A stretch of DNA of 58,974 nucleotides from a virus. Positions 1 to 58,974 of the stretch are shown piece by piece. Numbering within the stretch: the first letter of the stretch is position 1; each line of letters starts with the position of its first letter. The stretch covers positions 1 to 58,974 of the IMG/VR virus record IMGVR_UViG_3300045996_002045. The stretch is one strand, 5' to 3'. The notes beneath the pieces are model-generated. The model worked only from the letters and a program-made list of their open reading frames with translations, made no database searches and was not told where the DNA came from. Made by a program: the position numbers and the translations under genes.

Positions 1-140
1 GGACCATCACCACGTTCCGCGGCGCCTACGTGGTGAGGTACGGCGACCCGCGCACCGGGCGCACCGGCCGTGAGGGACGCCTGCGGACCAACCGGATCAC
101 CGGCGCGGTGCGGTATGGCCACACGAGGGAAGGGGAGTGA
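1..140 (+). CDS. Tail fibre, duplicated C-terminal fragment (partial)
   Basis: This is the last 46 codons of the repeat-rich fibre gene at 54786-58967, present here only because the contig ends overlap. It ends TGA at 138-140. The one nucleotide difference changes Lys to Arg near the C-terminus (TREGE here, TKEGE at the right end). The tail is basic and glycine/arginine-rich. It should be merged with the complete copy when the genome is closed. Confidence 0.85.
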   Translation, partial: TITTFRGAYVVRYGDPRTGRTGREGRLRTNRITGAVRYGHTREGE

Positions 141-147
141 CCGTGGA
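1..147. repeat. End repeat, left copy (147 bp)
   Basis: The first 147 bases match the last 147 bases of the window (58828-58974) with one difference: G at 127, A at 58954. The repeat lies in the 3' end of the fibre gene and runs into the next gene. Because the break is inside a coding sequence, the simplest reading is overlap from a circular or circularly permuted genome, with the single difference reflecting strain variation or an error. Confidence 0.9.
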
Positions 148-3612: not shown

Positions 3613-3630
3613 CGACCGTATGGTCAGGAC
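3613..3630 (+). promoter_or_regulatory. Leaderless promoter of the chitosanase gene
   Basis: CGACCGTATGGT ends at 3624; TATGGT fits a -10 hexamer and lies 6 nt before the ATG, leaving no room for a ribosome site. Nearly the same block (CGACCGTAGGGT) precedes the ATG at 5040. No clear -35 and no copy of the genome-wide palindrome is present, so these two genes seem to be controlled separately from the rest. Confidence 0.55.
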
Positions 3631-4920
3631 ATGCGCACACCTTCCTGGCTTTCGGCTGGGCTCTTGACGGCGGTCGCCGTCGGGACCCTGGCCATGCCAA
3701 TGACCGCGGCATCCGCCGCCACCGACGCCGGTGGCGCTGACGCCTTCACCTACACCGGCACGTGGGGTGGCACTGCCCCCGCCGAAAAGTGGTCCACCAC
3801 GGCCGGGTCGACGGCGACCGCCAAGGTCGACGTGGGCCCCGGCGGCGGCACCATCTCCTGGTACGGGAACCGGGACACCGGCGGCGGCAAGGCGACGGTT
3901 ACGGTCGACGCCCGGACCCCGGTCACGGTGGACACCTACGACCCGACCCCGCCGCCTGGCCTGGACCGCAACCTCTACACGACCCCGTGGCTGGCTGAGG
4001 GCCCGCACACCGTCAAGATCAACGTGCTGGGCACCGCGCGGACCGGCGCCACCGGCGTTGCGATCTCCGTCAAGGGCGTCAACACCACGAACGGCACGAT
4101 CGTCTGGCCGGGCAGCACCACGCCGACCACGCCGACCACCCCGCCGCCCACCAGCACCCCGCTGTCGGACCCGGTGAAGAAAGAGCAGATCCTCCAGTTC
4201 GTCTCCACCGTCGAGAACGGCGACAAGGACTGGACGAAGCACTACGGCTACGTCGAGTACGGCGCTGGCATCGGCGACACCCGCGGCTACACCCTCGGGA
4301 TCGTCGGCTGGACCACCGCCACCTACGACGCCAACATCCTGTTCAAGGCCTACCGCGCCGCGAAGCCCGGGAACGTGCTCGAGAAGTGGATCGACGAGCT
4401 CGACCGCATCGACGCGATGAGCACGCAGCAGCAGCGGCATGACGCCTCGCGCACGCTGCTCGGCTCGGCGTTCGTGGCCGACGTCCGCACCGCCGGCGCC
4501 GACCCGGTCTTCCAGTCCACGCAGAAGGCCGAGCGGGACCGCATGTACTGGAAGCCGGCGTACGACCTGGCCGTCACCGACGGGCTGTCGCCGCTGGGGC
4601 TGCAGGTCTACTACGACACCTCGGTCAACCACGGCCAGGGCTCGGCGACCGTGGGCGGCCAGTCCTTCCAGGGCATCCGGGCGACCGCCATGTCCAAGGC
4701 GAAGACGCCGGCGCAGGGTGGCAGCGAGGCCGCGTACCTGAACGCCGTCCTCGACGCCCGGTGGGTCGTGCTGCAGCAGTGGGGCGACGCGCAGACCAAC
4801 GGCCGGGTGCCGGCACTGCGCACCTTCGTCTCCACCGGCAAGTTCCCGCTGACCACCCCGTACAGCTGGAACATGTACGGCACGACGCACACCATCAGCG
4901 CGCCGCCGACGCCTCGCTGA
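3631..4920 (+). CDS. Secreted GH46 chitosanase
   Basis: 429 residues. A Sec signal peptide (residues 1-29, cleavage after ASA) is followed by a beta-sandwich, CBM-like domain (about 33-158), a Thr/Pro linker (about 161-178) and a glycoside hydrolase family 46 domain (180-425). GH46 enzymes cut beta-1,4 bonds in chitosan by inversion using a Glu and an Asp. Here Glu195 (STVENG) and Asp216 (GDTRGYT) match those positions, and AERDRMYW, TPAQGG and the C-terminal WNMYGT are as in Streptomyces family members. It forms a monocistronic unit with a leaderless promoter and a strong terminator. It would be exported by the infected host. A paralogous domain sits in the tail protein at 42694-45897. Natural substrate is unknown: environmental chitosan or a glucosamine-rich host surface polymer. 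Confidence 0.9.
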   Translation: MRTPSWLSAGLLTAVAVGTLAMPMTAASAATDAGGADAFTYTGTWGGTAPAEKWSTTAGSTATAKVDVGPGGGTISWYGNRDTGGGKATVTVDARTPVTVDTYDPTPPPGLDRNLYTTPWLAEGPHTVKINVLGTARTGATGVAISVKGVNTTNGTIVWPGSTTPTTPTTPPPTSTPLSDPVKKEQILQFVSTVENGDKDWTKHYGYVEYGAGIGDTRGYTLGIVGWTTATYDANILFKAYRAAKPGNVLEKWIDELDRIDAMSTQQQRHDASRTLLGSAFVADVRTAGADPVFQSTQKAERDRMYWKPAYDLAVTDGLSPLGLQVYYDTSVNHGQGSATVGGQSFQGIRATAMSKAKTPAQGGSEAAYLNAVLDARWVVLQQWGDAQTNGRVPALRTFVSTGKFPLTTPYSWNMYGTTHTISAPPTPR

Positions 4921-4939: not shown

Positions 4940-4972
4940 ACGACCCCCCGGGCCCACCGCCCGGGGGGTCGT
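4940..4972 (+). terminator. Intrinsic terminator after the chitosanase
   Basis: Perfect 14-bp stem (ACGACCCCCCGGGC / GCCCGGGGGGTCGT) with a 5-nt loop, followed by TTTC, 19 nt past the stop codon. Confidence 0.85.
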
Positions 4973-5020: not shown

Positions 5021-5039
5021 CGACCGTAGGGTGCGAGAC
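5021..5039 (+). promoter_or_regulatory. Leaderless promoter of the esterase-CAP gene
   Basis: CGACCGTAGGGT at 5021-5032 with TAGGGT as -10, 7 nt before the ATG at 5040. It closely matches the promoter of the chitosanase gene, including the GAC just before ATG, suggesting the two genes are expressed together although each has its own terminator. Confidence 0.55.
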
Positions 5040-6518
5040 ATGCCGAACTTCACCCTCAACGGGATGACCTCGCTCTACCACCTGTACGACGACACCGACC
5101 CCGGTAAGGAGAAGGGGCTGCTGCTCTACCTCGACGGGTCCGGCGGCTACGGCATCGACAACCCGAACGCCGTCTACCTGATCGACGCTGACGGCACCGC
5201 CGGCATGCGCCAGGTGGCGAAGGACCACAACATGGTGCTGCTGGTGCCCCAGGCGCCCCCGCCGGGCGACGCTGACGGCGACAACTGCTGGTACAACACG
5301 AGCACCTCGCCGAACGCCACCGCCAAGAGCGATTGGCTGCTCGGTCTGGTGCAGAAGGTGCAGGCCGAGCAGGGCGTCGTGAAGGATCGGGTCGCCACCG
5401 GCGGCTACTCCTCCGGCGCCCAGGGCCTGATGCGCTGGTTCCTCCCGCGGCACGGCACGAAGGTGCAGACCGACGGCGTCAACGTCGCGATCAGCTTCGG
5501 CGGTGCGCCGGACTCCAGCGCGGGCACACCGACGTTCACCGCCGCCTACAAGGGTGCGGTGCCGTTCCACTGGAACGTCGGCACGCAGGACACCACCGGC
5601 GCGTACAGCACCGCGGCATACGGCGGCCGCGGCGGCGTCGCCTGGTACCAGAACAACGGCTTCCAGGTGACCACCGAGTACCCGGCGATCGGGCACAACC
5701 GCAGCGACTTCGCCAAGATCATGCGGGCGCAGATCGTGAAGCACGTCCGGGCGGCCGCCGCGGTGGGCACCACCACGCCGCCGCCGACCGAGCCCCCGCC
5801 GAGCGGTGTCGGGCCGTCGGTGGCCGCCAGCGCCACCCCGGGCGATGGCACGGTGACGGTCAACTGGACCGCCAGCAACGTGACCGACCCGGCGACCGCC
5901 GGCGTGTGGGTGCAGCGGTTCGACGGCACCGACGGCACCTGGCACCGCGAGCTCACCGGGTCGCGCACCTTCACCGGGCTGGCCAACGGCACCCCGGCGA
6001 CGTTCGAGGTGTTCGTCGTCCGCGACGGCGGCGGGAACCTGGCCAGTGCCACGGTCACCGCCACCCCGCAGGCGGCCGCCGCACCGGCACCGGCCCCGGC
6101 GCCCGCCCCGGCCCCGACGGGGCTGTCCGCGCTCGAGACCGAGGCGCTGCGGCTGATCAACGTGGAGCGGTCGCGGGTCGGCGCCCCGGCGCTGGTCGTC
6201 GACGCCGGCATGCAGGAGGTCGCGCGGAAGCACTCCACCGACATGCGGGACCGCAACTACTTCTCGCACACCACCCCGGAGGGCGTCACGTTCTCCCAGC
6301 GGCTCACCGCGGCCGGCGAGGGCGGCGGCAGCAGCGCGGAGAACATCGCGTGGGGGCAGAGCACCGCGTCGGCGCTGGTCAGCGCGTGGATGGGGTCGTC
6401 GGGTCACCGGACCAACCTGCTGAACGCCACGTACCGGGCGACGGGCATCGCGGCGGTCACCGGCGGCACCCGCTCCCCGATGTGGACGCAGGTCTACCGA
6501 TCGACCGCGGCCAGCTGA
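5040..6518 (+). CDS. Esterase-FN3-CAP domain protein
   Basis: 492 residues. Residues 1 to about 240 look like an alpha/beta hydrolase of the PHB-depolymerase/carbohydrate-esterase kind: LLLYLDGSGGYG near the oxyanion region, nucleophile Ser124 in GYSSG, and a late GHNRSDF supplying a possible catalytic His. A fibronectin type III domain (about 255-345) and an Ala/Pro linker follow. The C-terminal 125 residues are a CAP (SCP/PR-1) domain with RKHSTDM, NYFSHTTPEG, AENIAWG and SSGHRTNLLN. There is no signal peptide, so the protein is either released at lysis or attached to particles. Monocistronic, sharing promoter type and terminator style with the chitosanase upstream. The substrate is unknown; a role in degrading host envelope or exopolymer is inferred from its neighbour. 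Confidence 0.8.
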   Translation: MPNFTLNGMTSLYHLYDDTDPGKEKGLLLYLDGSGGYGIDNPNAVYLIDADGTAGMRQVAKDHNMVLLVPQAPPPGDADGDNCWYNTSTSPNATAKSDWLLGLVQKVQAEQGVVKDRVATGGYSSGAQGLMRWFLPRHGTKVQTDGVNVAISFGGAPDSSAGTPTFTAAYKGAVPFHWNVGTQDTTGAYSTAAYGGRGGVAWYQNNGFQVTTEYPAIGHNRSDFAKIMRAQIVKHVRAAAAVGTTTPPPTEPPPSGVGPSVAASATPGDGTVTVNWTASNVTDPATAGVWVQRFDGTDGTWHRELTGSRTFTGLANGTPATFEVFVVRDGGGNLASATVTATPQAAAAPAPAPAPAPAPTGLSALETEALRLINVERSRVGAPALVVDAGMQEVARKHSTDMRDRNYFSHTTPEGVTFSQRLTAAGEGGGSSAENIAWGQSTASALVSAWMGSSGHRTNLLNATYRATGIAAVTGGTRSPMWTQVYRSTAAS

Positions 6519-7327: not shown

Positions 7328-7364
7328 TTGCCATAAGTCTGGCAAGGGGGTAGCGTAAGCGCTA
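7328..7364 (+). promoter_or_regulatory. Promoter with palindrome overlapping the -10
   Basis: TTGCCA (7328-7333), 17 nt, TAGCGT (7351-7356), 7 nt, ATG at 7364: a good leaderless sigma70-type promoter. The palindrome TAGCGT-AA-GCGCTA (7351-7364) covers the -10 and reaches the start codon. The inverted repeat TGCCATAAGTCTGGCA (7329-7344) overlaps the -35 and is identical to the one at 2277-2292. Confidence 0.65.
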
Positions 7365-7573
7365 TGCCCAGCACGAAGAACGCAACGCCCCTCAGTGCGT
7401 CCGAAGTGTCCCGGATCACCGGCTACGACATCAGCACCATCTGTCGCTGGGCCCGCGCCGGGGACCTGAAGGGCACCAGCAAGCTGCCCGGACTCCGCGG
7501 CGCCTGGCTCATCCCAGAGTCCGCGATCCAGACCATCAGGCCGAAGGGTGGGGCATCCGCCCCCCAGGCCTGA
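7364..7573 (+). CDS. Small HTH DNA-binding protein
   Basis: 69 residues. Residues about 9-60 form a MerR/excisionase-like helix-turn-helix: LSASEVSRITGYDISTICRW followed by AGDLKGTSKLPGLRGAWLIP, the recognition helix and wing. The start is the ATG just after the palindrome. Because its own promoter carries two inverted repeats, autoregulation is plausible. It is a candidate binder of the recurrent TAGCGC-N2-GCGCTA site. Confidence 0.75.
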   Translation: MPSTKNATPLSASEVSRITGYDISTICRWARAGDLKGTSKLPGLRGAWLIPESAIQTIRPKGGASAPQA

Positions 7574-19604: not shown

Positions 19605-20062
19605 CCACCGAGCCCTCCCCTGACGACATCAGGGCGGTCGCGCAGGTGCTCGCCGAAGGCCTGCGGCACAACCGTGACCTGTTCGTCGCCTTCGCCGGCA
19701 CCGCCCAGCGGGCGGCCGAGCAGATCGACGGCGTGCTGCAGGCGCTCGAACAGCTCGACAAGCCGGCGCCGCCGACTCCCCCCAAGTGGACCCGGGAGAC
19801 CGCGGCCGACGTCTTCGGAACGATCCGCGGCCACATCTTCGAGACGATCCGCGGCCAGATCACCGCGCACATGACGGTCACCGGCCAGGCGCCGATCGAG
19901 ATCGCGCTCACCACCGCCATGCGCGAGGGGCTGCTCAACCACGCCGAACGGCAGGTCGGGCACGAGATCATCCCCATCCCCGACCACCTGTTCGGGCTGC
20001 CCATCACCGTCGACGACACCATCCCGCACGACCCCGGGTTCGAGATCCGCCCCCGCCGCTGA
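19601..20062 (+). CDS. Hypothetical helical protein
   Basis: 153 residues. Helical N-terminal half (VAQVLAEGLRHNRDLFVAFA) with an acidic/hydrophobic middle and a near-repeat (FGTIRGHIFETIRGQI, residues about 72-87). Its stop overlaps the translocase start, suggesting a partner protein. Family unknown. Confidence 0.6.
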   Translation: MTTEPSPDDIRAVAQVLAEGLRHNRDLFVAFAGTAQRAAEQIDGVLQALEQLDKPAPPTPPKWTRETAADVFGTIRGHIFETIRGQITAHMTVTGQAPIEIALTTAMREGLLNHAERQVGHEIIPIPDHLFGLPITVDDTIPHDPGFEIRPRR

Positions 20063-20994
20063 TGCCCGACTTCCCGTGGGTGCCGTTCCTCGGCCTCGTC
20101 GCGATCATCACCGCCGTCTACACGGCGCTGTACCGCGTCGGCAGCCGAACCAACTGGACGATCAGCGACTACGTCGATCCGCTGCAGTCGCCCGTGGCGC
20201 CGTTCCAGGCCACCGACGACCTGAAGCGCATCCCCGTCGCGCTGAACGAGGACCGGCGCCCCGTCACCCTCCCGCTGCTCGGCAACCACCTGCTGATCGC
20301 CGGCGTCACCGGCAGCGGCAAAGGAAGCGTCATCTGGGCCCTGGTCGCCGGCTGCCAGCCGGCGCGGCGCCTCGGCCACGTCGAGCTCCGCGCCGTCGAC
20401 CCCAAGGGCGGCATGGAACTCACCCCCGGGTTCGAGCTGTTCGACGTGCTCGTCACCACCCCCGAGGAGGGCGTCGAGATCCTCGAGCAGGCCGTGCAGG
20501 ACATGAACGAGCGCGCCGCCCGGCTCGCCGACGTCGGCATCCGCAAGCTCACCCCCGGCGACGAAGACCAGGAAGCCGCCCTGGGCGTCGTCGAACCCCT
20601 CGTCGTCGTGCTCATCGACGAGCTGGCCGACCTGCTTGACTCCCCCGACCGGGACCTCAAGCGGCGCTGCCACGAAGCGCTGCGGGAGCTGCTCCGCAAG
20701 GGGCGGGCCGTCGGGTTCTGCGTCATCGGCGCCACGCAGGACGCCCGCGTGGAGGTCATCGGCATGCGCGCGCTGTTCCGGCAGCGCATCGCACTGCGCA
20801 CCGCCGACGCCAATCAGGCGGACATGATCCTCGGCCTCGGTGCCCGCCAAGCCGGCGCCGAGACCCACCGCATCCCAGCTGCCCACCCGGGCATCGCCTA
20901 CCTGATGACCGAGGGAGGACACCCCCGCCGCATCCGCTTCGCCTACCACTCCGACGAAGACATCACCGAACTCAGCGAGGAGGCCGCCGCATGA
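20062..20994 (+). CDS. FtsK/SpoIIIE/TraB-like DNA translocase
   Basis: 310 residues. One N-terminal membrane span (FLGLVAIITAVYTALY), then the FtsK-type ATPase: Walker A GVTGSGKGS (Lys87), RAVDPKGGMEL, Walker B VVVLIDELADLL (Asp186, Glu187), and GFCVIGATQD followed by RQRIALRTADANQADMILG. In actinobacterial plasmids and integrative elements such proteins (Tra/TraB) move double-stranded DNA through membranes, and short forms occur in some actinobacteriophages. The C-terminal gamma DNA-recognition domain is absent. Its role here is open: DNA uptake, partition or segregation of phage DNA. Flanked by membrane proteins and a LuxR-type regulator. Confidence 0.85.
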   Translation: MPDFPWVPFLGLVAIITAVYTALYRVGSRTNWTISDYVDPLQSPVAPFQATDDLKRIPVALNEDRRPVTLPLLGNHLLIAGVTGSGKGSVIWALVAGCQPARRLGHVELRAVDPKGGMELTPGFELFDVLVTTPEEGVEILEQAVQDMNERAARLADVGIRKLTPGDEDQEAALGVVEPLVVVLIDELADLLDSPDRDLKRRCHEALRELLRKGRAVGFCVIGATQDARVEVIGMRALFRQRIALRTADANQADMILGLGARQAGAETHRIPAAHPGIAYLMTEGGHPRRIRFAYHSDEDITELSEEAAA

Positions 20995-24856: not shown

Positions 24857-25045
24857 GCGCGTCGGGCGCGGCGTGCCGTGTGACAGCGGGCGACTTGTGC
24901 CAAGGCGTCGTGCCCTAGTGCGTACAGGCGCGACGAGGTTCACGTTACGCATGTCGTCGCTATCACGGCATCTGACATCACCTCTACGTAACGTCATCGG
25001 CGAGGTCGGAAGGGCCTCATGTCGTTACAAAGGAGGGTCGCCGTC

Positions 25046-25798
25046 ATGCGTTCGGCGGTTCGGAACACCATCACGGTGGGGTCGGTGGGCACTGCCCTGC
25101 TGCTCCCGCTGGTCACCGCTGGGACTGCATCGGCGCATGTCTCCACGCCCGCTCCCGTGGCTCCGGCCGCGGTGCAGGCTCCGGCTCCGGCTGCGGCCGA
25201 GCAGGGGAACGGGACCCACAAGGTCAAGCCGGGCGACACGATCGCCAAGATCGCGAAGGCTTACGGCGTCCGCTGGGACGCGCTGGCCGACCTGAACGGC
25301 GTCAAGTCTCCGTTCGTGATCTTCCCGAACCAGGTGCTGAAGCTGCCCGGTGGGGCGACCGCTCCGGCGGCCACTCCGGCGCCCGTGGAGCACACCTCGC
25401 GGGGCGCTGACCGCTCCGCTCCGGCCCCGACGCCGTCGGTGTCGAGCTCCGGCAAGGGTGCCGGCGCGGTGGCCTACATGTTCGAGCAGATGCGGCAGGG
25501 TGACCGGTACGTCTACGGCGCGAACGGCCCCAGCCAGTGGGACTGCTCGAGCCTGACGCAGGCTGCCTGGAAGTCACAGGGCGAGAACCTGCCGCGGACG
25601 TCGGCTGCGCAGGCCTCGGCCGGCACGGCGACGACCCGCGCGGCGCTGGTGCCCGGTGACCTGGTCCGCTACCCGGGCCACATCGCCATGTACATCGGCA
25701 ACGGCGAGGTCATCCACGCGGTGAACAAGAACGTCGGCCTGAAGGTGACGAGCCTCGACTGGGCAGGGTCGCCGACGGGTTACCGTCACATCGGCTGA
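25046..25798 (+). CDS. Secreted LysM-NlpC/P60 peptidoglycan hydrolase
   Basis: 250 residues. A Sec signal peptide (cleavage near TASA-HVS), an Ala/Pro spacer, one LysM domain (THKVKPGDTIAKIAKAYGV, ending VLKLPGG), a Ser/Pro linker and a C-terminal NlpC/P60 domain with Cys in WDCSSLTQ, His in PGHIAMYIG and a third polar residue in VIHAVN. Such enzymes cut peptidoglycan stem peptides; the design is that of host actinobacterial wall hydrolases, not of a usual endolysin. ATG 25046 is chosen because of AGGAGGG 8 nt upstream and because the longer form from 25019 needs a TTA codon, rare in such genomes. Monocistronic with a terminator. Probably acquired from a host. Confidence 0.85.
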   Translation: MRSAVRNTITVGSVGTALLLPLVTAGTASAHVSTPAPVAPAAVQAPAPAAAEQGNGTHKVKPGDTIAKIAKAYGVRWDALADLNGVKSPFVIFPNQVLKLPGGATAPAATPAPVEHTSRGADRSAPAPTPSVSSSGKGAGAVAYMFEQMRQGDRYVYGANGPSQWDCSSLTQAAWKSQGENLPRTSAAQASAGTATTRAALVPGDLVRYPGHIAMYIGNGEVIHAVNKNVGLKVTSLDWAGSPTGYRHIG

Positions 25799-38233: not shown

Positions 38234-38263
38234 ATCAGTGGTCCGCGGCGGGAGGTAGTGCGT

Positions 38264-41200
38264 GTGAACGCCGACGTCGTGTGGGTCGACGTCCTCCCGT
38301 CCATGAAGCACTTCCTGGGCAACCTGCGCAAGGGCTCGGTCGACGCGGCGGGGCAGGTGGGCCGCGAGTCCGGGGACGCCTACAGCAAGGGGTTCCAGGA
38401 CAAGGCCGTTGCCGGCGTGGAGAACGCCTCCGCGAAGGTCGCGGCCGCCCGGGCGAAGGAAGCGAACGCCTCGGATGCGGTGAAGGTCGCCGAGCAGCGC
38501 CTGGCCGAGGTCCGGAAGGTCGCCGAGGCCGGGTCGGCGCGGCTGCTGGCGGCTGAGGCCGCGCTCGAGCGCAACCGCCGCGCGGCGACGCTGGCCACCG
38601 AGTCCTCGGAGCGTGCCAACCGGTCGCTGGAGCGGGCGAACCGCGCGCTGGAGTCGGCGAGCGACGGCGCCGGGTTCAGCTTCGCTCGGCTGGCGCAGTC
38701 GATGACCGAGCTGAACGCCCGGTCCGACGCGCTGGACCGCACCAGCAAGGGCCTGGCGTCGACGATCCGCACCGTCGGGTCGATCGGCGCCGCGTCGTTC
38801 GGTGTGCTCGCCGGCCAGGCGGGCGTGGGCGCGCTGGTGGCCGTCACGGGCGCCTCCCTGGCGGCGTCGGGCGCGCTGCTGCTGCTGCCGGCCGCGGCCG
38901 CCGCTGTCGCCGCACCGGTGGCTACTGCGAAGCTCGGCCTCATTGGCTTCGACGCCGCGCTCAAGGGCCTGGCCGACGGCAAGATGGACAAGGTCACCGA
39001 GGCCATGGAAGACATGGCTCCCGCTGGCCGGGCGGTGATCCAAGCGCTCGTCGACGCGAAGCCGGCGTTCGACGACCTGCGCAGGTCCATTCAGCAAGAG
39101 ATGTTCGAGGGCCTGTCGACCGAGGTCCGGTCGCTGGCCGGCAACTACCTGCCGATGTTGCGCGGCGAGCTCGGCCTCTTCGCGGCGATCATCAACGGCG
39201 CCGCGCGCGAAGTGCTCTGGTTCGTCAACCAGGCCCGGACCGTCGACGACGTGCGCACCATCCTCGGCAACGTCCGGACCGGCTTCGCCGAGGTGGAGCA
39301 CGCCGCGCAGCCGATTGTGCAGATCCTCACGGACATCGCGGTGGTCGGCTCGGAGTTCATCCCGAACCTCGCCGGCGGGTTGGCCAACCTGGCGCAGCGC
39401 ACCGCGGATTGGGTGCGGCACGCGCGCGAGACCGGGATCTTGCACGACATCATCAGCCAGGCGCTGTCGGTGGTCGGGCAGCTGGGCATGATCCTCGGCA
39501 ACGTCGGGATGATCATCGTCAGCGTCTTCCGGGCCGGCTACGACCAGGGGCAGGGCTTCCTCACCACGCTGGTGCAGCTCACGACCAGCGTGCGCGAGTT
39601 CGTGAGCTCCGCCCAGGGCATGGCGGTGCTGCGGGCCGGGTTCCAGGGCGTCGGCGACGCGGTCGGCGCGATCACCCCGCTGATCGGGACCGCGGCCAGC
39701 ATCGTGCTCGGCCAGCTGCTGCCGGCGTTCTCTCAGTTCGCGGTGATCCTCGCGCCGATCGTGCACGAGCTGCTGCGCGCGCTGCAGGACGCCTTCCGGC
39801 AGCTGGCGCCGCTGGTGCCGCAGCTGGCGAGCACCGTCGGCACGCTGGTCGGGTCGTTCATCCCGCTGATTCCGCTTGTGACGCAACTGGCGCTCATCCT
39901 CCTGCCCCCCCTGCTGTCGATCATCACCGCGCTGGGCCCTGCGTTCCCCTTCCTGGCCATCGGGATCTTCGCCGCGGTGCAGGCCTTCCAGGCGCTCAAC
40001 GCGCTGGTGACCTTCAGCAAGCTGGCGATCGAGCTGTACGAGTCCCGGATGCTGCTCGTCCGGGTGGCGACCGGTCTGTGGACCGCCGCGCAGTGGCTGC
40101 TGAACGCCGCGCTGACCGCCAACCCGATCGGGCTCGTCATCCTCGCGCTGGTCGCCTTGGGTGCTGGCCTCTACATGGCCTGGACCCACAGCGAGACCTT
40201 CCGGAACATCGTGACCGGCGCCTGGAACGCGGTGAAGGACGCCGCGGTCGGCGCCTGGCAGAACTACATCAAGCCGGCGATCGACGCCTTCGCCGCGGCC
40301 GGCATCTGGCTCTACCAGAACGCGCTGCTGCCGGCGTTCAACGGGATCATGGCCGCGTGGAACGCGGTGTCCACGGCCGTGCAGTGGGCGTGGAACAACG
40401 TGATCAAGCCGACGTGGGACTTCCTGGTGTCGGCCGCGATGCACCTCCTCGCGGTGCTCGTGACGATCGTGCTCGCGCCGATCTTGATCGCCTGGAACCT
40501 GCTGTCGGCCGGGATCATGGCCGGTTGGAACAACATCATCAAGCCGGCGTGGGATCAGCTGCAGCTGTACCTGACGTGGCTCTGGGAGACCCGGATCCGG
40601 CCGCTCTTCGATTTGATCAAGGCCGGTTGGGATGCGCTCGGACGATTCTTCGTCTGGGTGTATGACACCATTCTGAAGCCGCTCTGGGATGGCCTGGTTC
40701 AGTACCTGACCAACTTCTGGAACAACCGCGTCCGGCCATTGTTCGATCAGATCAAGGCCGGTTGGGATCTCCTCGGTCGATTCTTCACGTGGGTGTATGA
40801 CACCATCCTCAAGCCATTGTGGGATGGCCTCGTCTTCTACCTCCAGAACTTTTGGAACAACCGCGTCCGGCCGATCTTCGACTTGATCAAGTCTGGCTGG
40901 GACGCCCTGGGCCGTTTCTTCCGGTGGGTATACGACAACATCATTCAGCCGGCGTGGGACGCGGTGGCGCGCAGCCTGTCGTGGGTGAAGGACCGTTTCC
41001 AGGACGCGGTAAACAACATCCGCAATATCTGGAATGGCATCAAGCGCGTTCTGGCCGTGCCGATCAACTTCATGATCAACACGGTGTGGAATGGCGGCAT
41101 CGTCCCCGCCTGGAACGCCGTTGCCGCACTGCTGCCCGGCGTCGGCAAGATCAGCCCCCAGAAGGGCATCCCCGAGGCGGCCGTGGGCGGCCAGTTCACC

Positions 41201-42691
41201 CGCGACGGGGTGAACAACTTCCGGGCCGGCGGCCAGCTGCAGGGCCGGTACCGGGGCCCCGAGGCCGACAACCTGCTGGGCATCGTCGACAACAAGCATC
41301 CGATCAAGGTCAACCCGCTTGAGTGGATCCACCCCGTCCGGTCGGTCAAGAAGTACGGCGGGGACTTCATGCGGTCGGTGCAGCACGGCACCTTCCCCGA
41401 GGAGCTCGCGAAGGCCCCCCGCCGGTACACCGCCACCGAGAAGGTGCGCCGCGCCGACGTCCGCGAGAAGTACGCCCAGGGTGGGCCCGTCATCCCTGGC
41501 TTCGCGCAGGGCTCGATCGTCGACCTCGGCCGGCTGCTGCAGTCCAAGGGTGCCCGCGTCTCCGAGCACCCGGCGTTCGGCGGCGTCGCGCCGGTGCACG
41601 GGAAGAACTCGCTGCACTACTCCGCGCAGGCCATCGACGTGAACACCAGGCCGGGCACGTCAGCGCTCGAGCAGCGCGAGCTCGACCCGCTGGCCGCGCT
41701 CGCCCGCAGCATGGGGTTCCGGGTGATTTGGCGCTCGGCCGGCCACTTCAACCACATGCACGCCGACACCGGGAAGGGCCTCGGCTCGATCGGCACGGCG
41801 TCGGGCAGCGCGACGGTCACGCAGAGCACCATTGAGGAAATCTTCAACTCGCTGAAGAAATCAATCGCTGACACCTTCGTCGCTCCGGCGCGCGCCGCGG
41901 TGAACAAGCTCACCTGGAACGAGCCGCCGGCGTTCCACGGCATTCCCCGCAAGGCCGGTCACTTCCTGATCGACAAAGCCGTGGAGATGCTCACCGGCAA
42001 GGCGCAGGAGAAGGCCAACGCCGACGGCGCGGCCAGCGCCGCCGGGTCCAGCCTCGGTGTCGCGACCACGAATGGTCCGGTGCAGGAGACGGTGCGCGCG
42101 GTCGCCGCAACCCGCGGGTGGGGCAGTGGCCCGCAGTGGGATGCGCTCGATTGGATCGTGCGGAAAGAGAGTGGGTGGCGGCCGACAGCCCAGAACCCCG
42201 TGTCATCCGCCTCCGGGCTCTTCCAGATGATCGACGGCACGTGGCGCGCGTACCGGCCGCCGCAGGCGAGCTCGTTCGCGAAGGCGCGCCTCGCGCCGGT
42301 GAACCACCAGGCTGTCGCCGGCATGAACTACTTTGGCGGCCGCTACGGCTCCCCGGTCGGCGCGCGGGCGTTCTGGCAGAAGAACGGCTGGTACGCGCAG
42401 GGTGGCCAGGTGCCGGCGTTCGCGCGCGGCGGCCACACCCGCGGCTGGGCGCGCGAGGGCATGGCGATGCTGCACCCCGACGAGCGGGTGCTGGCGCCGG
42501 AGCAGGACCGGTACTTCCGGCAGTTCGTCGACGCGACCAGCGCGATCGGCGGTGCCGGCGGTGACCGGATGCTCGCCCGGGAGATCAACATCCATGCGAA
42601 CACCACGGATCAGGGACGGGACGTCGTGGACAACCTCTGGCACAAGGTCCGTGTGGCTGACCGCGGCGGCGTCTACACCTTCACCACCTGA
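38264..42691 (+). CDS. Tape measure protein with two wall-hydrolase-like domains
   Basis: 1475 residues from GTG 38264 (GGGAGG 8 nt upstream; GTG 38258 is too close). N-terminal coiled coil (about 40-140), several hydrophobic segments (about 160-240 and 540-660), three 45-residue repeats (about 800-935), then a domain like M15 D-Ala-D-Ala peptidases (SLHYSAQAIDVN, FNHMHADTG, about 1100-1185) and a lysozyme/transglycosylase-like domain (WIVRKESGWRPTAQNP, SASGLFQMIDGTWRAY, about 1285-1370; catalytic-type Glu in RKESG). The protein sets tail length and passes the wall during infection; the hydrolase domains fit local peptidoglycan opening. Confidence 0.85.
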   Translation: MNADVVWVDVLPSMKHFLGNLRKGSVDAAGQVGRESGDAYSKGFQDKAVAGVENASAKVAAARAKEANASDAVKVAEQRLAEVRKVAEAGSARLLAAEAALERNRRAATLATESSERANRSLERANRALESASDGAGFSFARLAQSMTELNARSDALDRTSKGLASTIRTVGSIGAASFGVLAGQAGVGALVAVTGASLAASGALLLLPAAAAAVAAPVATAKLGLIGFDAALKGLADGKMDKVTEAMEDMAPAGRAVIQALVDAKPAFDDLRRSIQQEMFEGLSTEVRSLAGNYLPMLRGELGLFAAIINGAAREVLWFVNQARTVDDVRTILGNVRTGFAEVEHAAQPIVQILTDIAVVGSEFIPNLAGGLANLAQRTADWVRHARETGILHDIISQALSVVGQLGMILGNVGMIIVSVFRAGYDQGQGFLTTLVQLTTSVREFVSSAQGMAVLRAGFQGVGDAVGAITPLIGTAASIVLGQLLPAFSQFAVILAPIVHELLRALQDAFRQLAPLVPQLASTVGTLVGSFIPLIPLVTQLALILLPPLLSIITALGPAFPFLAIGIFAAVQAFQALNALVTFSKLAIELYESRMLLVRVATGLWTAAQWLLNAALTANPIGLVILALVALGAGLYMAWTHSETFRNIVTGAWNAVKDAAVGAWQNYIKPAIDAFAAAGIWLYQNALLPAFNGIMAAWNAVSTAVQWAWNNVIKPTWDFLVSAAMHLLAVLVTIVLAPILIAWNLLSAGIMAGWNNIIKPAWDQLQLYLTWLWETRIRPLFDLIKAGWDALGRFFVWVYDTILKPLWDGLVQYLTNFWNNRVRPLFDQIKAGWDLLGRFFTWVYDTILKPLWDGLVFYLQNFWNNRVRPIFDLIKSGWDALGRFFRWVYDNIIQPAWDAVARSLSWVKDRFQDAVNNIRNIWNGIKRVLAVPINFMINTVWNGGIVPAWNAVAALLPGVGKISPQKGIPEAAVGGQFTRDGVNNFRAGGQLQGRYRGPEADNLLGIVDNKHPIKVNPLEWIHPVRSVKKYGGDFMRSVQHGTFPEELAKAPRRYTATEKVRRADVREKYAQGGPVIPGFAQGSIVDLGRLLQSKGARVSEHPAFGGVAPVHGKNSLHYSAQAIDVNTRPGTSALEQRELDPLAALARSMGFRVIWRSAGHFNHMHADTGKGLGSIGTASGSATVTQSTIEEIFNSLKKSIADTFVAPARAAVNKLTWNEPPAFHGIPRKAGHFLIDKAVEMLTGKAQEKANADGAASAAGSSLGVATTNGPVQETVRAVAATRGWGSGPQWDALDWIVRKESGWRPTAQNPVSSASGLFQMIDGTWRAYRPPQASSFAKARLAPVNHQAVAGMNYFGGRYGSPVGARAFWQKNGWYAQGGQVPAFARGGHTRGWAREGMAMLHPDERVLAPEQDRYFRQFVDATSAIGGAGGDRMLAREINIHANTTDQGRDVVDNLWHKVRVADRGGVYTFTT
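40526..41065 (+). repeat. 135-bp tandem repeats in the tape measure gene
   Basis: The segment beginning TATGACACCA recurs at 40661 and 40796, and as TACGACAACA at 40931, each 135 nt (45 residues) apart; a partial copy lies before 40661. The protein unit contains KPLWDGLV, NFWNNRVRP, IKAGWD and LGRFFxWVYD. Gain or loss of a unit would change tail length in fixed steps. Confidence 0.85.
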
Positions 42692-42693
42692 TC

Positions 42694-45600
42694 ATGCCGA
42701 ACCTCTCGACGATCGTTGACGACTTCAACGACAACGCGATCGACACCGGTCTGTGGACCGGCAACTACGGCTCGGTGTCGGAGACCGGCGGCCGCGCCCG
42801 GCTGACGAACACCGCGGCCGGCACCGCGGCGTACCACGGCTTCCAGACGGCGTCGATCTATACCTTCGACGACACCGGCTGGTATCGCGTCTACCCGCAG
42901 GCGGCCAACGGCGCCACGGCGAACACGTACACCGCGATCACGGTCACCTCTGGCGCGCAGCCGGCCGGGACCAGCATCACCATGTCGCACAACGCCGTGA
43001 GCGGCATGCTCACGTGCCAGCTGCGGGTGGGGTACTCCGACGCCGCGGGGACCAGCGTCGCCTACTCAGCGACCGACCACGCCTGGTGGCGGATCCGCCG
43101 CAGCGGCGCGAACATCATCTTCGAGACGGCGCCGGACAACGCCGGGGCCCCGGGCACCGCCACCGCGCGCCGCACCGCCACCCTGCCGGCGTGGGCGGAC
43201 ACCGCCACCGACTGCCGCCTGCTACTGGAGAGCGGCCGGCAGGGCGGTACGCAGACCATCTCGGAGTTCGACCGGGTCACCGTCGCCGCGCCGCCGGCCA
43301 CCTGGAACCTGTCCGACCCCAAGCTGAAGGAAGCGATCCTGCGCTTCGTCAGCACGGTGGAGAACGGCAACCAGCAGTGGTGGACGCACTTCGGCTACAT
43401 CGAGTACGGCGCCGGGATCGAGGACACCCGCGGGTACACCGGCGGCATCGTCGGCTGGACGACGGCGACGTTCGACATGAACGTCCTGATCAAGGCCTAC
43501 CAGTCGGCCAAGCCGGGGAACGTGCTGGAGAAGTGGATCCCCACGCTCAACAGCATCGACGCGATGGCGACGCAGGACGAGCGCCACGCGGCGTCGCTGA
43601 CGCAGTTGGGGTCGGCGTTCGTCGCTGACTTCCAGGCCGCCGGCAATGACCCGGTGTTCCAGACGGTGCAGATGGCCGAGCGGGACCGGCTGTACTGGGC
43701 GCCCGCCTACAACCTCGCGGTCACCGACGACATGTCGCCGCTGGGCCTGCTGCACTACTACGACTGCTCGGTCAACCACGGGCAGGGTGCCGCCACCATC
43801 GGCGGGCAGTCGTTCCAGGGGATCCGCGCCACCGCCCGGTCGCAGGCCTCCACGCCCGCGCAGGGCGGCAATGAGGGCACCTACCTGGCGAAGTTCAACG
43901 ACGCCCGCCAGGTCGTGCTCGAGGCCTGGGGCGACTACCAGGCGGGACCGCCCCCGGAGCTGGACGGCCGCGTGCCGGCGTGCCGGGCGTTCGTCGCGGC
44001 CGGCAACTTCGGCCTGGTCACGCCCTACAGCTGGAACATGTACGGCACCACGCACACGATGTCCGCCTGGCCGGACCCGTACGTGCTGCCTTCGGCCCCC
44101 TCCGGCGTCACCTACCGCAGCGGCGTCACGGCGGAGGCCGGCGCCGGGAGCTCGCTGCCGGTCGGGAAGCCGGCGGGGCTCACGGCCGGCGACCTCATGC
44201 TGTCCGCGTACCTGTGCGACCGGGACGCGAACGGGGCGAGCATCCCGGCGGTGACCGGCTGGACGACGGCCGGCACGCTGGACCGCACGTCGGGCACACC
44301 CGAGATCGGCGGCATGCGGGTCGCGTGGAAGATCGCCACCGCCGGCGACGTGTCCGGCACCGGCTGGACCTTCGGCTCGCCCGGCAGCGCTGACCACGCC
44401 GCCGCGATCCTCGTCTTCACCGCCGGCACCTTCGACCCGAACAACCCCATCGCCGACGTCCAGTTCGGGGTGCACGGCACGGCCGCGTTCACGCACACCG
44501 CGCCGTCGGCGGCCGGCGTCGACCAGGGGATGCTGGTCAGCGTCTTCGGCCGCTCCGACAACGCGCGCCCCGCGGGCACGGTGACCTGGTCGACGACCGC
44601 GCAGGATCTCCGTACGCAGGTCGGCGGCTCCGACATGTGGACCAGCCTCGCCACGGCGACGACGCCGCTGACGGCCACCGGATCCACCGCCACGAAGAAC
44701 GGCACCGCCAACGACTCGTCGCAGGCGCTGAGCGCCTCGGTGGTCATCCGGCCGCCGGCCGCCGCCCAGGCCGGCCAGCGCAACGCCACGGACGCTGCAG
44801 GGGCCACGGACAGCCACACCCGCACCCTGACGATGACCCGCACGGCGACCTCGAGCGCCGGGGCGACGGACGCGGTGCAGGTGCAGCGGGGCAAGGCTGT
44901 CGCCTCGCCCGCCGGCGCGACCGACAGCTTCAGCCGGCAGATGACGATGGTCCGGTCGTTCACCTCGTGGGCGCCGACCACCGACCACGCCGTCTGGACC
45001 ATGGACCGGCCGGACATCATCGACTACCAGTTCGTCTTCGATGCCGAGCCGTGGGTGCCGTTCGGGCTGGGCCAGACGGTCGTCGTGGAGAAGTTCTCCC
45101 CCGGCGGGGCGGACACCCGCACGCAGGACGTGCTGTCGCCCACCGCGGACGTCCGCTGGTTCGGCACCGACCGGCGGACGCCGCCGACGTGGGCCTTCGA
45201 CATGTACACCGACGTCGAGGACGCCGGCCAGGCGCTCGGCTGGGCGCAGAACATGGAAGAGCTCTGGGACGCAGAAGAGCTGCGCAGCACCCCGAACGCC
45301 GTGGTGCCGCTGCGGTACTGCATCGCCGGCCGCATCCGGCGGGTGTACGGGCGCCCGGGGAACTTCGAGGTCGTCCCGACGTTCGTGCGCACCGGGCGGG
45401 TGCACATGGTCGCCGACTTCCGGCTGGCCGAGCACACCTACTACGACGACGTCGAAGACAAGATCACGATCCGCACGGTTCCGTCGGACACGTCGGCCTC
45501 CGGCTTCACGTTCCCGATCACCTTCCCGCTGACCATCGGTGCGCAGGGCGACTCCCCGATCGTCGAGCAGGCCGTCGTGCGCGGCCGCCGGCCGACGTGG

Positions 45601-45897
45601 ACTGACGTCACCTTCTACGGCCCGTCGCTCGACCCGTGGGTGATGATCGGCGGGCAGCGCTGGCAGCTGCGCGGCGAGATCGGCACCGGGGAGTCGATCC
45701 GGATGTCCGGCAAGCCGTGGCAGCAGGGCCTGCTACGCAACGACGGTGCGTGGATGGCCGGCATGTTGGGCCCCCAGGCGCGGCTGTCGCAGCTGCGGCT
45801 GCCGCCGGGGCTGTACCCCGTGAAGTACGGGGCGTACGACCCGACCGGAACCAGTAGAGCCGAAGTGGCGTGGCGCGCCGCTTACGGAACGATGTAG
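42694..45897 (+). CDS. Tail protein (Dit-like) with inserted GH46 chitosanase
   Basis: 1067 residues. Residues about 8-200 are a concanavalin/LamG-like beta domain (DDFNDNAIDTGLWTGNYGS). Residues about 208-459 are a glycoside hydrolase family 46 domain with Glu223 (STVENG) and Asp244 (EDTRGYT), about two thirds identical by eye to the secreted chitosanase at 3631-4920. Another beta domain, three AGATD repeats (about 698-750) and a C-terminal 300-residue part (VPFGLGQTVVVEKFSPGG, WAFDMYTDVED, PPGLYPVKYGAYDPTG) follow; that part and the position after the tape measure suggest a distal tail or minor tail protein. The enzyme would be displayed at the tail tip and could digest a glucosamine-containing surface polymer. 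Confidence 0.85.
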   Translation: MPNLSTIVDDFNDNAIDTGLWTGNYGSVSETGGRARLTNTAAGTAAYHGFQTASIYTFDDTGWYRVYPQAANGATANTYTAITVTSGAQPAGTSITMSHNAVSGMLTCQLRVGYSDAAGTSVAYSATDHAWWRIRRSGANIIFETAPDNAGAPGTATARRTATLPAWADTATDCRLLLESGRQGGTQTISEFDRVTVAAPPATWNLSDPKLKEAILRFVSTVENGNQQWWTHFGYIEYGAGIEDTRGYTGGIVGWTTATFDMNVLIKAYQSAKPGNVLEKWIPTLNSIDAMATQDERHAASLTQLGSAFVADFQAAGNDPVFQTVQMAERDRLYWAPAYNLAVTDDMSPLGLLHYYDCSVNHGQGAATIGGQSFQGIRATARSQASTPAQGGNEGTYLAKFNDARQVVLEAWGDYQAGPPPELDGRVPACRAFVAAGNFGLVTPYSWNMYGTTHTMSAWPDPYVLPSAPSGVTYRSGVTAEAGAGSSLPVGKPAGLTAGDLMLSAYLCDRDANGASIPAVTGWTTAGTLDRTSGTPEIGGMRVAWKIATAGDVSGTGWTFGSPGSADHAAAILVFTAGTFDPNNPIADVQFGVHGTAAFTHTAPSAAGVDQGMLVSVFGRSDNARPAGTVTWSTTAQDLRTQVGGSDMWTSLATATTPLTATGSTATKNGTANDSSQALSASVVIRPPAAAQAGQRNATDAAGATDSHTRTLTMTRTATSSAGATDAVQVQRGKAVASPAGATDSFSRQMTMVRSFTSWAPTTDHAVWTMDRPDIIDYQFVFDAEPWVPFGLGQTVVVEKFSPGGADTRTQDVLSPTADVRWFGTDRRTPPTWAFDMYTDVEDAGQALGWAQNMEELWDAEELRSTPNAVVPLRYCIAGRIRRVYGRPGNFEVVPTFVRTGRVHMVADFRLAEHTYYDDVEDKITIRTVPSDTSASGFTFPITFPLTIGAQGDSPIVEQAVVRGRRPTWTDVTFYGPSLDPWVMIGGQRWQLRGEIGTGESIRMSGKPWQQGLLRNDGAWMAGMLGPQARLSQLRLPPGLYPVKYGAYDPTGTSRAEVAWRAAYGTM
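44785..44945 (+). repeat. Three AGATD repeats
   Basis: Three units (AAGATDSHTRTL, SAGATDAVQVQR, PAGATDSFSRQM) spaced 18-20 residues, of the same kind as the 25 units in the fibre gene at 54786. Shared repeats in two tail genes give a place for recombination between them. Confidence 0.85.
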
Positions 45898-46890: not shown

Positions 46891-46916
46891 CGCGTGCGCT
46901 ATAGTGCTGGCACCCG
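46888..46916 (+). promoter_or_regulatory. Palindromic promoter of the second moron
   Basis: TAGCGC-GT-GCGCTA (46888-46901), perfect arms; TAGCGC as -35 and CACCCG 17 nt later, or alternatively TATAGT at 46900-46905 as -10. It begins at the TAG of the preceding gene. Confidence 0.6.
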
Positions 46917-46941
46917 ATCCACCCACCCCACTGGAGTACCC

Positions 46942-47409
46942 GTGAAGCGCACCCTGACCGTCGCGGCCGCCGTTGCCGCCCTGTTCGCCGCCACCCCCGC
47001 CGCCCAGGCGGCCCCCGCCGACGACAAGGCGCTGTGCAAGAGCGGCGGGTTCGCCAACTACGTCGACCCGACCACCGACCTGCCGTTCGCGGATCAGGGG
47101 CGATGCATCGAGCACGTCAACGCCGGTGGCGCGCTCGCGCCCGTCGCCGCCCCGATTGAAGGCGTCTTCACCTTCTCCCCCTCGGACGCCGGAAAGTGCC
47201 TGTTCCGGTTCGAGGCCAGCGGGCTGGAGTCGCAGACGAGCTACCCCTTCTCCGTGGACTGGACGTGGAACGGGGAGCCGCAGAACATCCCTGGCACCCT
47301 CTCCACTTTCGATGGGACGACGTGGGACTGGGGAACGCAGGCCGATGTGGACACCCCGGTCAGCATGACGGTCGGTGATCAGACGTTCAGGGATCAGGTC
47401 ACCTGCTGA
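46942..47409 (+). CDS. Moron: small secreted protein
   Basis: 155 residues from GTG 46942, ribosome site TGGAG. A clear Sec signal peptide (KRTLTVAAAVAALFAATPAA, cleavage near AQA-AP) precedes a mature part with four Cys (LCKSGG, GRCIEH, GKCLFRF, and a terminal QVTC), likely two disulfides, and an Ig-like beta pattern. Own promoter and own terminator inside the tail operon mark it as a moron. Exported by the infected cell; could mask or alter the surface, or act on competitors. No family recognised. Confidence 0.75.
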   Translation: MKRTLTVAAAVAALFAATPAAQAAPADDKALCKSGGFANYVDPTTDLPFADQGRCIEHVNAGGALAPVAAPIEGVFTFSPSDAGKCLFRFEASGLESQTSYPFSVDWTWNGEPQNIPGTLSTFDGTTWDWGTQADVDTPVSMTVGDQTFRDQVTC

Positions 47410-52164: not shown

Positions 52165-52314
52165 ATGTCTGAGCCCGAGCGCGACCTGGACCCTGGCGAG
52201 ATCGTCGAGGCGACCACCGTCGAGGAGTACGAGGACCCCACGGACCCGGAGATCACCGACCCCGAGCACCCGGACTACGTAGAGCCGGGCGTCGACTACG
52301 GAGCTGACGACTGA
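52165..52314 (+). CDS. 49-residue acidic protein
   Basis: ATG at 52165, 7 nt after CACACT, so perhaps leaderless; the same CACACTGGGG block precedes the gene at 18819. Almost entirely acidic (EEYEDPTDPEITDPEHPDYV). It overlaps the endolysin ATG. A disordered or DNA-mimic-like small protein; function unknown. Confidence 0.5.
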   Translation: MSEPERDLDPGEIVEATTVEEYEDPTDPEITDPEHPDYVEPGVDYGADD

Positions 52315-53000
52315 TGGCCATCCTGACCAGCGGCTACGTCGGCGCCAAGGCCTGCACCTCCGGCCCGACGCCGGGTGCAAAGAACCTCATGTCCTGGTGG
52401 CTGCGCGACTACGCCCCCCGGGGCGGCACGAACCTGGGCATCTTCAACTGCCGGCCGGTGCGCGGCGGCGTCGTCACGTCGCTGCACGGCGAGGGCCGGG
52501 CGGCCGACCTCGGCACCCCGACGAGCAACACCTGGTCGTTCGCGGCCATGGACAAGCTGCGGCTGCACAGCCGTGAGCTGGGAATCCAGTGCATCATCCA
52601 CAACCGCAAGATTTGGTCGGCCTCCGGCGGGCCCGACTGGCGGCCGTACAAGGGCGTCGCCCCGCACTTCGACCACGGTCACGTCGAGCTCACCCCCGAG
52701 GCTGCCCGGACGCTGACGCTGGCGAAGATCGACTCGGTGCTGTCCCCGCCGGTCGCGATCAAGGGGAAGGCCGGCGACGGCATCCTCGAGCGCGGCGACC
52801 GGGGCCCGGCCGTGGAGCAGCTGCAGCGCGTCCTGCGCGCCTGGTACCCGCGGGACCTGACGTGGCTGGTCGTCGACGGCGACTTCGGCCAGCGAACCGA
52901 GGACGCGGTGCGGTACGCGCAGGCGAAGCACCGACTGGCCGTGGACGGGGTGGCCGGCCCGGCGACGCTGAAGGCGCTGAACCTCGCCGGACTGCGGTGA
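52314..53000 (+). CDS. Endolysin: M15-like peptidase plus peptidoglycan-binding domain
   Basis: 228 residues. Residues about 30-135 have the zinc-peptidase pattern of the M15/D-Ala-D-Ala carboxypeptidase kind: SLHGEGRAADLGT (His and Asp ligands) and HFDHGHVEL (second His). Residues about 155-225 are a peptidoglycan-binding type 1 domain (LERGDRGPAVEQLQRVLRAW, GDFGQRTEDAVRYAQ, VAGPATLKAL). It should cut stem peptides at lysis. No signal peptide, so it depends on the holin-like genes just downstream. Confidence 0.85.
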   Translation: MAILTSGYVGAKACTSGPTPGAKNLMSWWLRDYAPRGGTNLGIFNCRPVRGGVVTSLHGEGRAADLGTPTSNTWSFAAMDKLRLHSRELGIQCIIHNRKIWSASGGPDWRPYKGVAPHFDHGHVELTPEAARTLTLAKIDSVLSPPVAIKGKAGDGILERGDRGPAVEQLQRVLRAWYPRDLTWLVVDGDFGQRTEDAVRYAQAKHRLAVDGVAGPATLKALNLAGLR

Positions 53001-58967: not shown

Positions 58968-58974
58968 CCGTGGA
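58828..58974. repeat. End repeat, right copy (147 bp)
   Basis: Matches 1-147 with one difference (A at 58954, G at 127), converting Arg to Lys in the fibre C-terminus. See the left copy. Confidence 0.9.

Follow-up and report, generated by a model that had tools for sequence, protein, structure and literature searches.

A tail-fused GH46 domain and an export-tagged GH46 paralogue in one actinophage genome: a candidate two-route delivery of chitosanase

The window analyzed here is the whole of a virus record of 58,974 bases, with a GC content of 70%. It is a soil-type bacterial virus, and its genes for terminase-, portal-, capsid-, tape-measure-, and endolysin-type proteins are of the actinophage kind. 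The genome (~58.8 kb) is probably complete, because a 147-bp direct repeat is common to both contig ends. The nearest named-phage relatives of the capsid protein belong to Rhodococcus, Mycobacterium, Gordonia, and Streptomyces phages (top identity 57%), and the closest match to the primase is found in Arthrobacter phages; based on these actinophage relatives, the host is probably an actinomycete. Among the predicted genes that were scanned, no integrase or repressor was recognized. An FtsK/SpoIIIE-like ATPase encoded at 19786–20994 (integrase unrecognized) possibly has a plasmid-like or transfer-related function. A profile search with PF01374 gave two matches in the window and no third (E 4.3e-56 and 2.1e-54; 184.7 and 179.1 bits vs. 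a cut-off of 27), and the presence of both GH46 domains is far beyond chance. The genome ends, the locus of the first copy, and the endolysin comprise the following features:

1..147, plus strand: terminal direct repeat, with its copy at 58828–58974 (99% identity)
3619..3624, plus strand: putative -10 element TATGGT of the leaderless-transcript type, ending 6 nt before the ATG at 3631 (from sequence)
3631..3720, plus strand: putative Sec-type signal peptide, residues 1–30, MRTPSWLSAGLLTAVAVGTLAMPMTAASAA (translation, hydrophobicity, A-x-A motif)
3721..4095, plus strand: accessory domain, approximately residues 31–155, related to domains of secreted actinobacterial enzymes
4159..4917, plus strand: GH46 catalytic domain of the export-tagged copy; profile match over residues 189–410 (PF01374, 1e-53)
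4213–4215 and 4276–4278, plus strand: catalytic residues E195 and D216 of the export-tagged copy (alignment to CsnN174)
4258..4266, plus strand: YGA insert, residues 210–212, between the catalytic Glu and Asp of the export-tagged copy (37-sequence alignment)
4940..4972, plus strand: strong hairpin, intrinsic-terminator-like, with a 14-bp GC stem and a short T run, after the export-tagged chitosanase gene (MFE -38.2 kcal/mol, z -5.7)
5040..6518, plus strand: neighbor gene for a protein with alpha/beta-hydrolase-like, linker/FN3-like and CAP regions, without a signal peptide (PF00188, 2.6e-21)
52314..53000, plus strand: gene for a peptidoglycan-binding endolysin, distinct from both GH46 genes (profile matches)

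The export-tagged chitosanase (P0001; 3631–4920, plus strand; 429 aa) consists of a putative signal peptide, an accessory domain, a Pro/Thr linker, and the GH46 domain. By eye and by hydropathy, its N terminus has clear n, h, and c regions and ends in ASA-A. The accessory domain is 31–38% identical to domains in secreted actinobacterial enzymes, and gave no Pfam match and no match among phages. Upstream of the next gene (ATG at 5040) there is a comparable element, TAGGGT at 5027–5032 (7 nt upstream), and a CGACCGTANGGT context is common to both genes, a pattern that is not rarer than chance when one mismatch is allowed. TANNNT at this distance precedes 4 of 48 gene starts, vs. a background of 0.4%; by an argument from consensus only, expression of the export-tagged chitosanase looks leaderless. 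Scans for consensus sigma-70 promoters and for terminators listed neither a promoter nor the 4940–4972 hairpin at the 3631–4920 locus.

The gene for the export-tagged copy sits between the blocks of late and early genes, flanked by phage-type genes, and its anatomy would fit a moron: a single gene outside the core modules, with promoter-like and hairpin elements of its own. The stand-alone arrangement, with its promoter-like and terminator-like elements, would also fit an explanation in which the export-tagged chitosanase is a host moron, functionally separate from the tail enzyme, through which an infected or lysogenic actinomycete would use fungal chitosan as food or withstand its antimicrobial action. 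In cells, GH46 enzymes have roles in nutrition and in protection against chitosan (PMC4663542); a GH75 chitosanase from a soil virus is regarded as the product of an auxiliary metabolic gene (PMC9485262), and the accessory region that holds the export-tagged copy could be of use to the host instead of to infection. Against this, the export-tagged copy is sister to the tail copy and not to cellular secreted chitosanases (see below), and neither an integrase nor a repressor is recognized among the predicted genes. We regard the host-benefit moron as unlikely, although it is the main rival to the reading that we prefer, in which a domain duplicated within the phage lineage is delivered by two routes.

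The hydrolase domain of the neighboring protein (5040–6518) is 29% identical to one in a GH46-bearing tail protein of a Piscicoccus prophage; a scan of IMG/VR contigs with the domain gave no relatives. Identical copies of a palindrome, TGCCATAAGTCTGGCA, at 2277–2292 and 7329–7344 flank the accessory block with the export-tagged chitosanase; there are two copies, with no others at up to 3 mismatches (expected 0.09), and the second is just upstream of a small HTH gene (7364–7573). TGCCATAAGTCTGGCA is probably an operator or promoter element. Two sister contigs (L118 and L119; MCP 89–90%) span neither GH46 locus, and the region from 1 to 8 kb is left uncovered by them, as might be expected if the export-tagged copy were bacterial DNA joined in an assembly chimera. 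That is the least probable of the explanations considered here: the GC3 of the gene (0.949) falls within the range for phage genes (0.932–0.963), the flanking genes are of phage type, the same palindrome lies on either side, the terminal repeat closes the genome, and the nearest relative of the copy is inside this phage.

Two further export-tagged proteins are encoded in the window. The gene at 25019–25798, before the terminase gene and away from the endolysin, encodes a signal peptide with LysM and NlpC/P60 domains, and its product is likely a peptidoglycan hydrolase. The third, at 46894–47409 (~155–171 aa), is inside the tail gene block, and no domain was recognized in it.

The second GH46 domain is encoded in the tail module, where the following features were identified:

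38258..42691, plus strand: tape measure protein gene, directly upstream of the GH46 tail gene (phrog_6090, 6.9e-121)
42694..43299, plus strand: N-terminal domain of the tail protein, residues 1–202 (phage family phrog_14065)
43303..44082, plus strand: GH46 catalytic domain of the tail copy; profile match over residues 218–444 (PF01374, 2.2e-51)
43360–43362 and 43423–43425, plus strand: catalytic residues E223 and D244 of the tail copy (alignment to CsnN174)
43405..43413, plus strand: YGA insert of the tail copy, residues 238–240 (37-sequence alignment)
45061..45894, plus strand: minor tail protein domain, residues 790–1067 (phrog_7161, 3e-15)

The GH46 tail gene (42694–45897, plus strand) starts two bases past the tape measure gene and encodes a protein of 1067 aa (P0002), in which GH46 lies between the phrog_14065 domain and another domain, after which come short "AGATDS" repeats and, at the C terminus, the phrog_7161 domain. 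The C-terminal 278 residues match the whole of Soondubu gp16 and Gilgamesh gp68, from Arthrobacter and Streptomyces phages, each of which is encoded immediately downstream of the tape measure gene. Because the C terminus matches complete minor tail proteins at the same position, an ordinary tail-tip protein appears to have gained ~790 residues, including the GH46 domain. An enzyme domain is thus fused to a tail protein encoded inside the tail module, one feature of virion-associated depolymerases, and from the minor tail fusion and the position after the tape measure gene we infer that the tail copy is incorporated in virions. Separately, 60-nt tandem repeats at 57337–57953 encode 20-residue "AGATDS/AGAVD" units of a 1393-aa protein (54786–58967), and a shorter run of this motif is encoded at 44904–44945 in the GH46 tail protein; the common repeat motif suggests that the two proteins belong to one tail structure.

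GH46 enzymes cleave beta-1,4 glucosamine links. Both copies align to the structure sequence of Streptomyces CsnN174 (1CHK; 7e-48 for the export-tagged copy and 1.1e-43 for the tail copy), and all eight CsnN174 key residues tested (E22, D40, R42, T45, D57, D145, R190, and R205) are kept in both. The general acid (Glu), the base (Asp), the Arg, and the Thr that positions the water correspond to E195/D216/R218/T221 in the export-tagged copy and E223/D244/R246/T249 in the tail copy, and the minus-2 subsite Asp (CsnN174 D57) to D233 and D261, respectively. The roles of these residues in CsnN174, either in catalysis or in the cleft network, have been described, and the minus-2 subsite Asp gives glucosamine preference in GH46 clusters A–D (PMC4663542). 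The pairwise dN/dS between the copies is ~0.40 (dS 0.60, dN 0.24), and since this is below 1, both copies have evolved under constraint. Both look catalytically competent. It is highly improbable that the GH46 domains are instead non-enzymatic, glycan-binding or structural modules: a private insert between the catalytic residues and the replacement of CsnN174 E197 by W and of H200 by A/Y would be consistent with this, but the catalytic acid, base, water-positioning Thr, and minus-2 Asp are retained in both copies with dN/dS below 1, the same W is present in other phage copies, and the alignment at E197/H200 is uncertain because the region is divergent.

An earlier note on this DNA had placed an export-tagged chitosanase at 3631–4920 and a tail protein with a GH46 domain at 42694–45897; these coordinates and stops are right. 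Its estimate by eye that about two thirds of residues are common to the two copies becomes 69% by BLASTP (181 of 263 residues identical, E 6e-122). It had also pointed to a 21-residue spacing between the catalytic Glu and Asp, which holds in both copies, but is private to the pair, the family norm being 18 (as for E22/D40 of CsnN174). Within this interval lies the YGA insert, which is absent from the other 35 of the 37 aligned sequences, and the exact DNA pattern of the YGA loop had no match elsewhere in a viral scan. The note's view of the copies as paralogous was borne out by the alignment and trees, in which they are not placed far apart; instead, they are sisters, with support of 100/99 to 100/100, in all three trees (21, 37, and 38 sequences). 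The private insert and the tree together identify YGA as a shared derived character of the pair. In a rooted tree, for which Staphylococcus plasmid chitosanases served as outgroup, the pair falls with a clade made up of phage tail copies plus three Micrococcales-type proteins (100/98), and both copies lie outside GH46 cluster A (actinobacterial secreted enzymes). The grouping of the export-tagged copy alone with the secreted cellular clade was rejected by an AU test (p 6.4e-5), which rules this copy out as a bacterial cluster A enzyme. From these sequence comparisons, the export-tagged and tail GH46 domains are judged to be paralogues. The tail form may be ancestral and the export-tagged form derived, a direction that is weak because the outgroup branch is long.

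Independent acquisition of the two copies from related bacterial donors is extremely doubtful. One IMG/VR record (L137) carries a cellular-type secreted copy, and a common unsampled donor is conceivable; however, the copies are 69–71% identical to each other vs. at most ~50% to all other sequences found, and they have the private insert and 100/100 sister support in common. Viral scans that took as query either the domain from the window or an alignment of its two copies gave no relatives, nor did a first scan of genome contigs; 294 genomes from a single order likewise gave nothing at a strict threshold (E 1e-55), in a search run without a positive control.

Among 50,697 phage records, 30 have a GH46 match, all of them Streptomyces phages and each in one place; the GH46 genes inspected among these records sit in the tail block and are often annotated as "chitosanase". 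In IMG/VR, 13 records have a single GH46 match above the cut-off (two are isolates also among the 30), one of which has an extra, weak GH46 fragment below the cut-off. Most of the 13 are of tail type; several (L135, L136, L138, and L140) encode tail-type proteins of 500–1845 aa, with additional modules that by eye are alginate-lyase-like, GH16-like, or beta-helix. L137, in contrast, has a lone, cellular-type exported copy, so there are at least two paths by which GH46 has come into virus records. Given its presence in tail proteins of other actinophages, GH46 is a module that recurs in actinophage tails. No second intact GH46 copy occurs in the 30 phage or 13 IMG/VR records, although these viral scans were pattern-based and left out near relatives of the window, such that absence of the pairing is not proof. 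Within the collections and papers searched, the pairing of a tail copy with an exported paralogue is seen only here.

Some of these tail proteins combine many modules. The Piscicoccus intestinalis prophage protein (L086:3523-9060, the same as L136; ~1.8k aa) is a multi-enzyme tail protein in which GH16-like, GH46, metallopeptidase-like, alginate-lyase-like, and alpha/beta hydrolase modules can be discerned by eye, and the GH46 proteins of L138 and L140 (1689 and 1785 aa) join GH46 to lyase-like, GH16-like, and beta-helix modules within one phage protein, a wide-ranging set of tail modules for glycan degradation.

For the window, we propose that the GH46 domain was duplicated inside this actinophage lineage. 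Because one copy is joined to the minor tail protein encoded immediately downstream of the tape measure gene, particles would bear a depolymerase for glucosamine polymers at the tip of the tail. The second copy has a putative Sec-type signal peptide, an accessory domain related to those of secreted actinobacterial enzymes, and promoter-like and terminator-like elements of its own; from it, the infected (or lysogenic) cell would export a free enzyme. Both enzymes would have the same specificity, and their common target would be a polymer around hosts that is rich in beta-1,4 glucosamine. This delivery by two routes, tail-bound and exported, after duplication within the lineage is the best single reading, and we hold it with slightly better than even confidence; the activity of both enzymes, the presence of the tail copy in virions, the single common polymer, and the tail-to-exported direction are parts of it that we infer. 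A two-stage function of the exported and tail enzymes is plausible. More tentatively, and with less than even credence, the exported enzyme may have arisen when the phage duplicated the depolymerase domain of its tail and the copy acquired a signal peptide, an accessory domain of host type, and a promoter of its own; one specificity would then be delivered along two separately controlled routes. The matrix polymer known from Streptomyces is PNAG, which is beta-1,6-linked (PMC5972031); the beta-1,4 chemistry of GH46 speaks against PNAG as the natural substrate, and Streptomyces PNAG is thus no obvious candidate.

In phages, free depolymerase usually arises via overproduction or release of a tail protein. 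A dedicated export-tagged paralogue, if the two-route reading is true, would make the infected cell an enzyme factory ahead of lysis, and would clearly exemplify an auxiliary gene that arose from a virion gene and was not taken from the host. The pair would also provide a clean test system, in which each gene can be removed alone, and the survey draws attention to GH46 as a module that recurs in actinophage tails without a known substrate.

The earlier note had known of no case of both forms in one phage. To that extent it stands, as we found no literature on a phage with both a tail-borne and an exported GH46; it is qualified by the tail GH46 in 30 Streptomyces phage records, and by a two-form proposal for chlorovirus CVK2. 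The latter is the nearest precedent: vChta-1 (GH46 cluster C) was proposed to exist in two forms, one soluble and the other virion-borne (PMC4663542). Nevertheless, CVK2 is an algal giant virus in which the forms derive from alternative transcripts of a single gene, rather than from two paralogues as in the window, and the virion location was later ascribed to incomplete purification (PMC8145301). Phage polysaccharide depolymerases are similar in terms of delivery, occurring virion-bound and soluble, with a tail-bound enzyme and free enzyme around the plaque, but their free form is released at lysis, whereas the window has a separate gene with a predicted signal peptide (PMC5380687). The soil virus V-Csn is likewise a viral chitosanase, but is a single gene of an unrelated fold and family (GH75; PMC9485262). 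Streptomyces CsnN174 (PDB 1CHK, cluster A) has in common with the window copies the catalytic fold, by sequence, and the key residues; however, it is a cellular secreted enzyme, and the window copies fall outside its clade and bear the YGA insert. Rimavirus gp21 and Ponzi gp58 (Streptomyces phages; phrog_20173) resemble the tail copy in having GH46 in a long tail-block protein, annotated as chitosanase or glycoside hydrolase, and one paper on Streptomyces phages lists a "chitosanase" in the tail region but does not discuss it (PMC8782336). Rimavirus gp21 and Ponzi gp58 differ in that there is one copy per genome (37–43% identical), without an exported paralogue and, among the aligned sequences, without the YGA insert; in addition, the Rima GH46 gene precedes the tape measure gene, whereas that of the window is fused to the protein after it. 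Tail GH46 alone was already known from Streptomyces phages; the pair, tail and exported, in one phage has no counterpart in the collections and papers searched.
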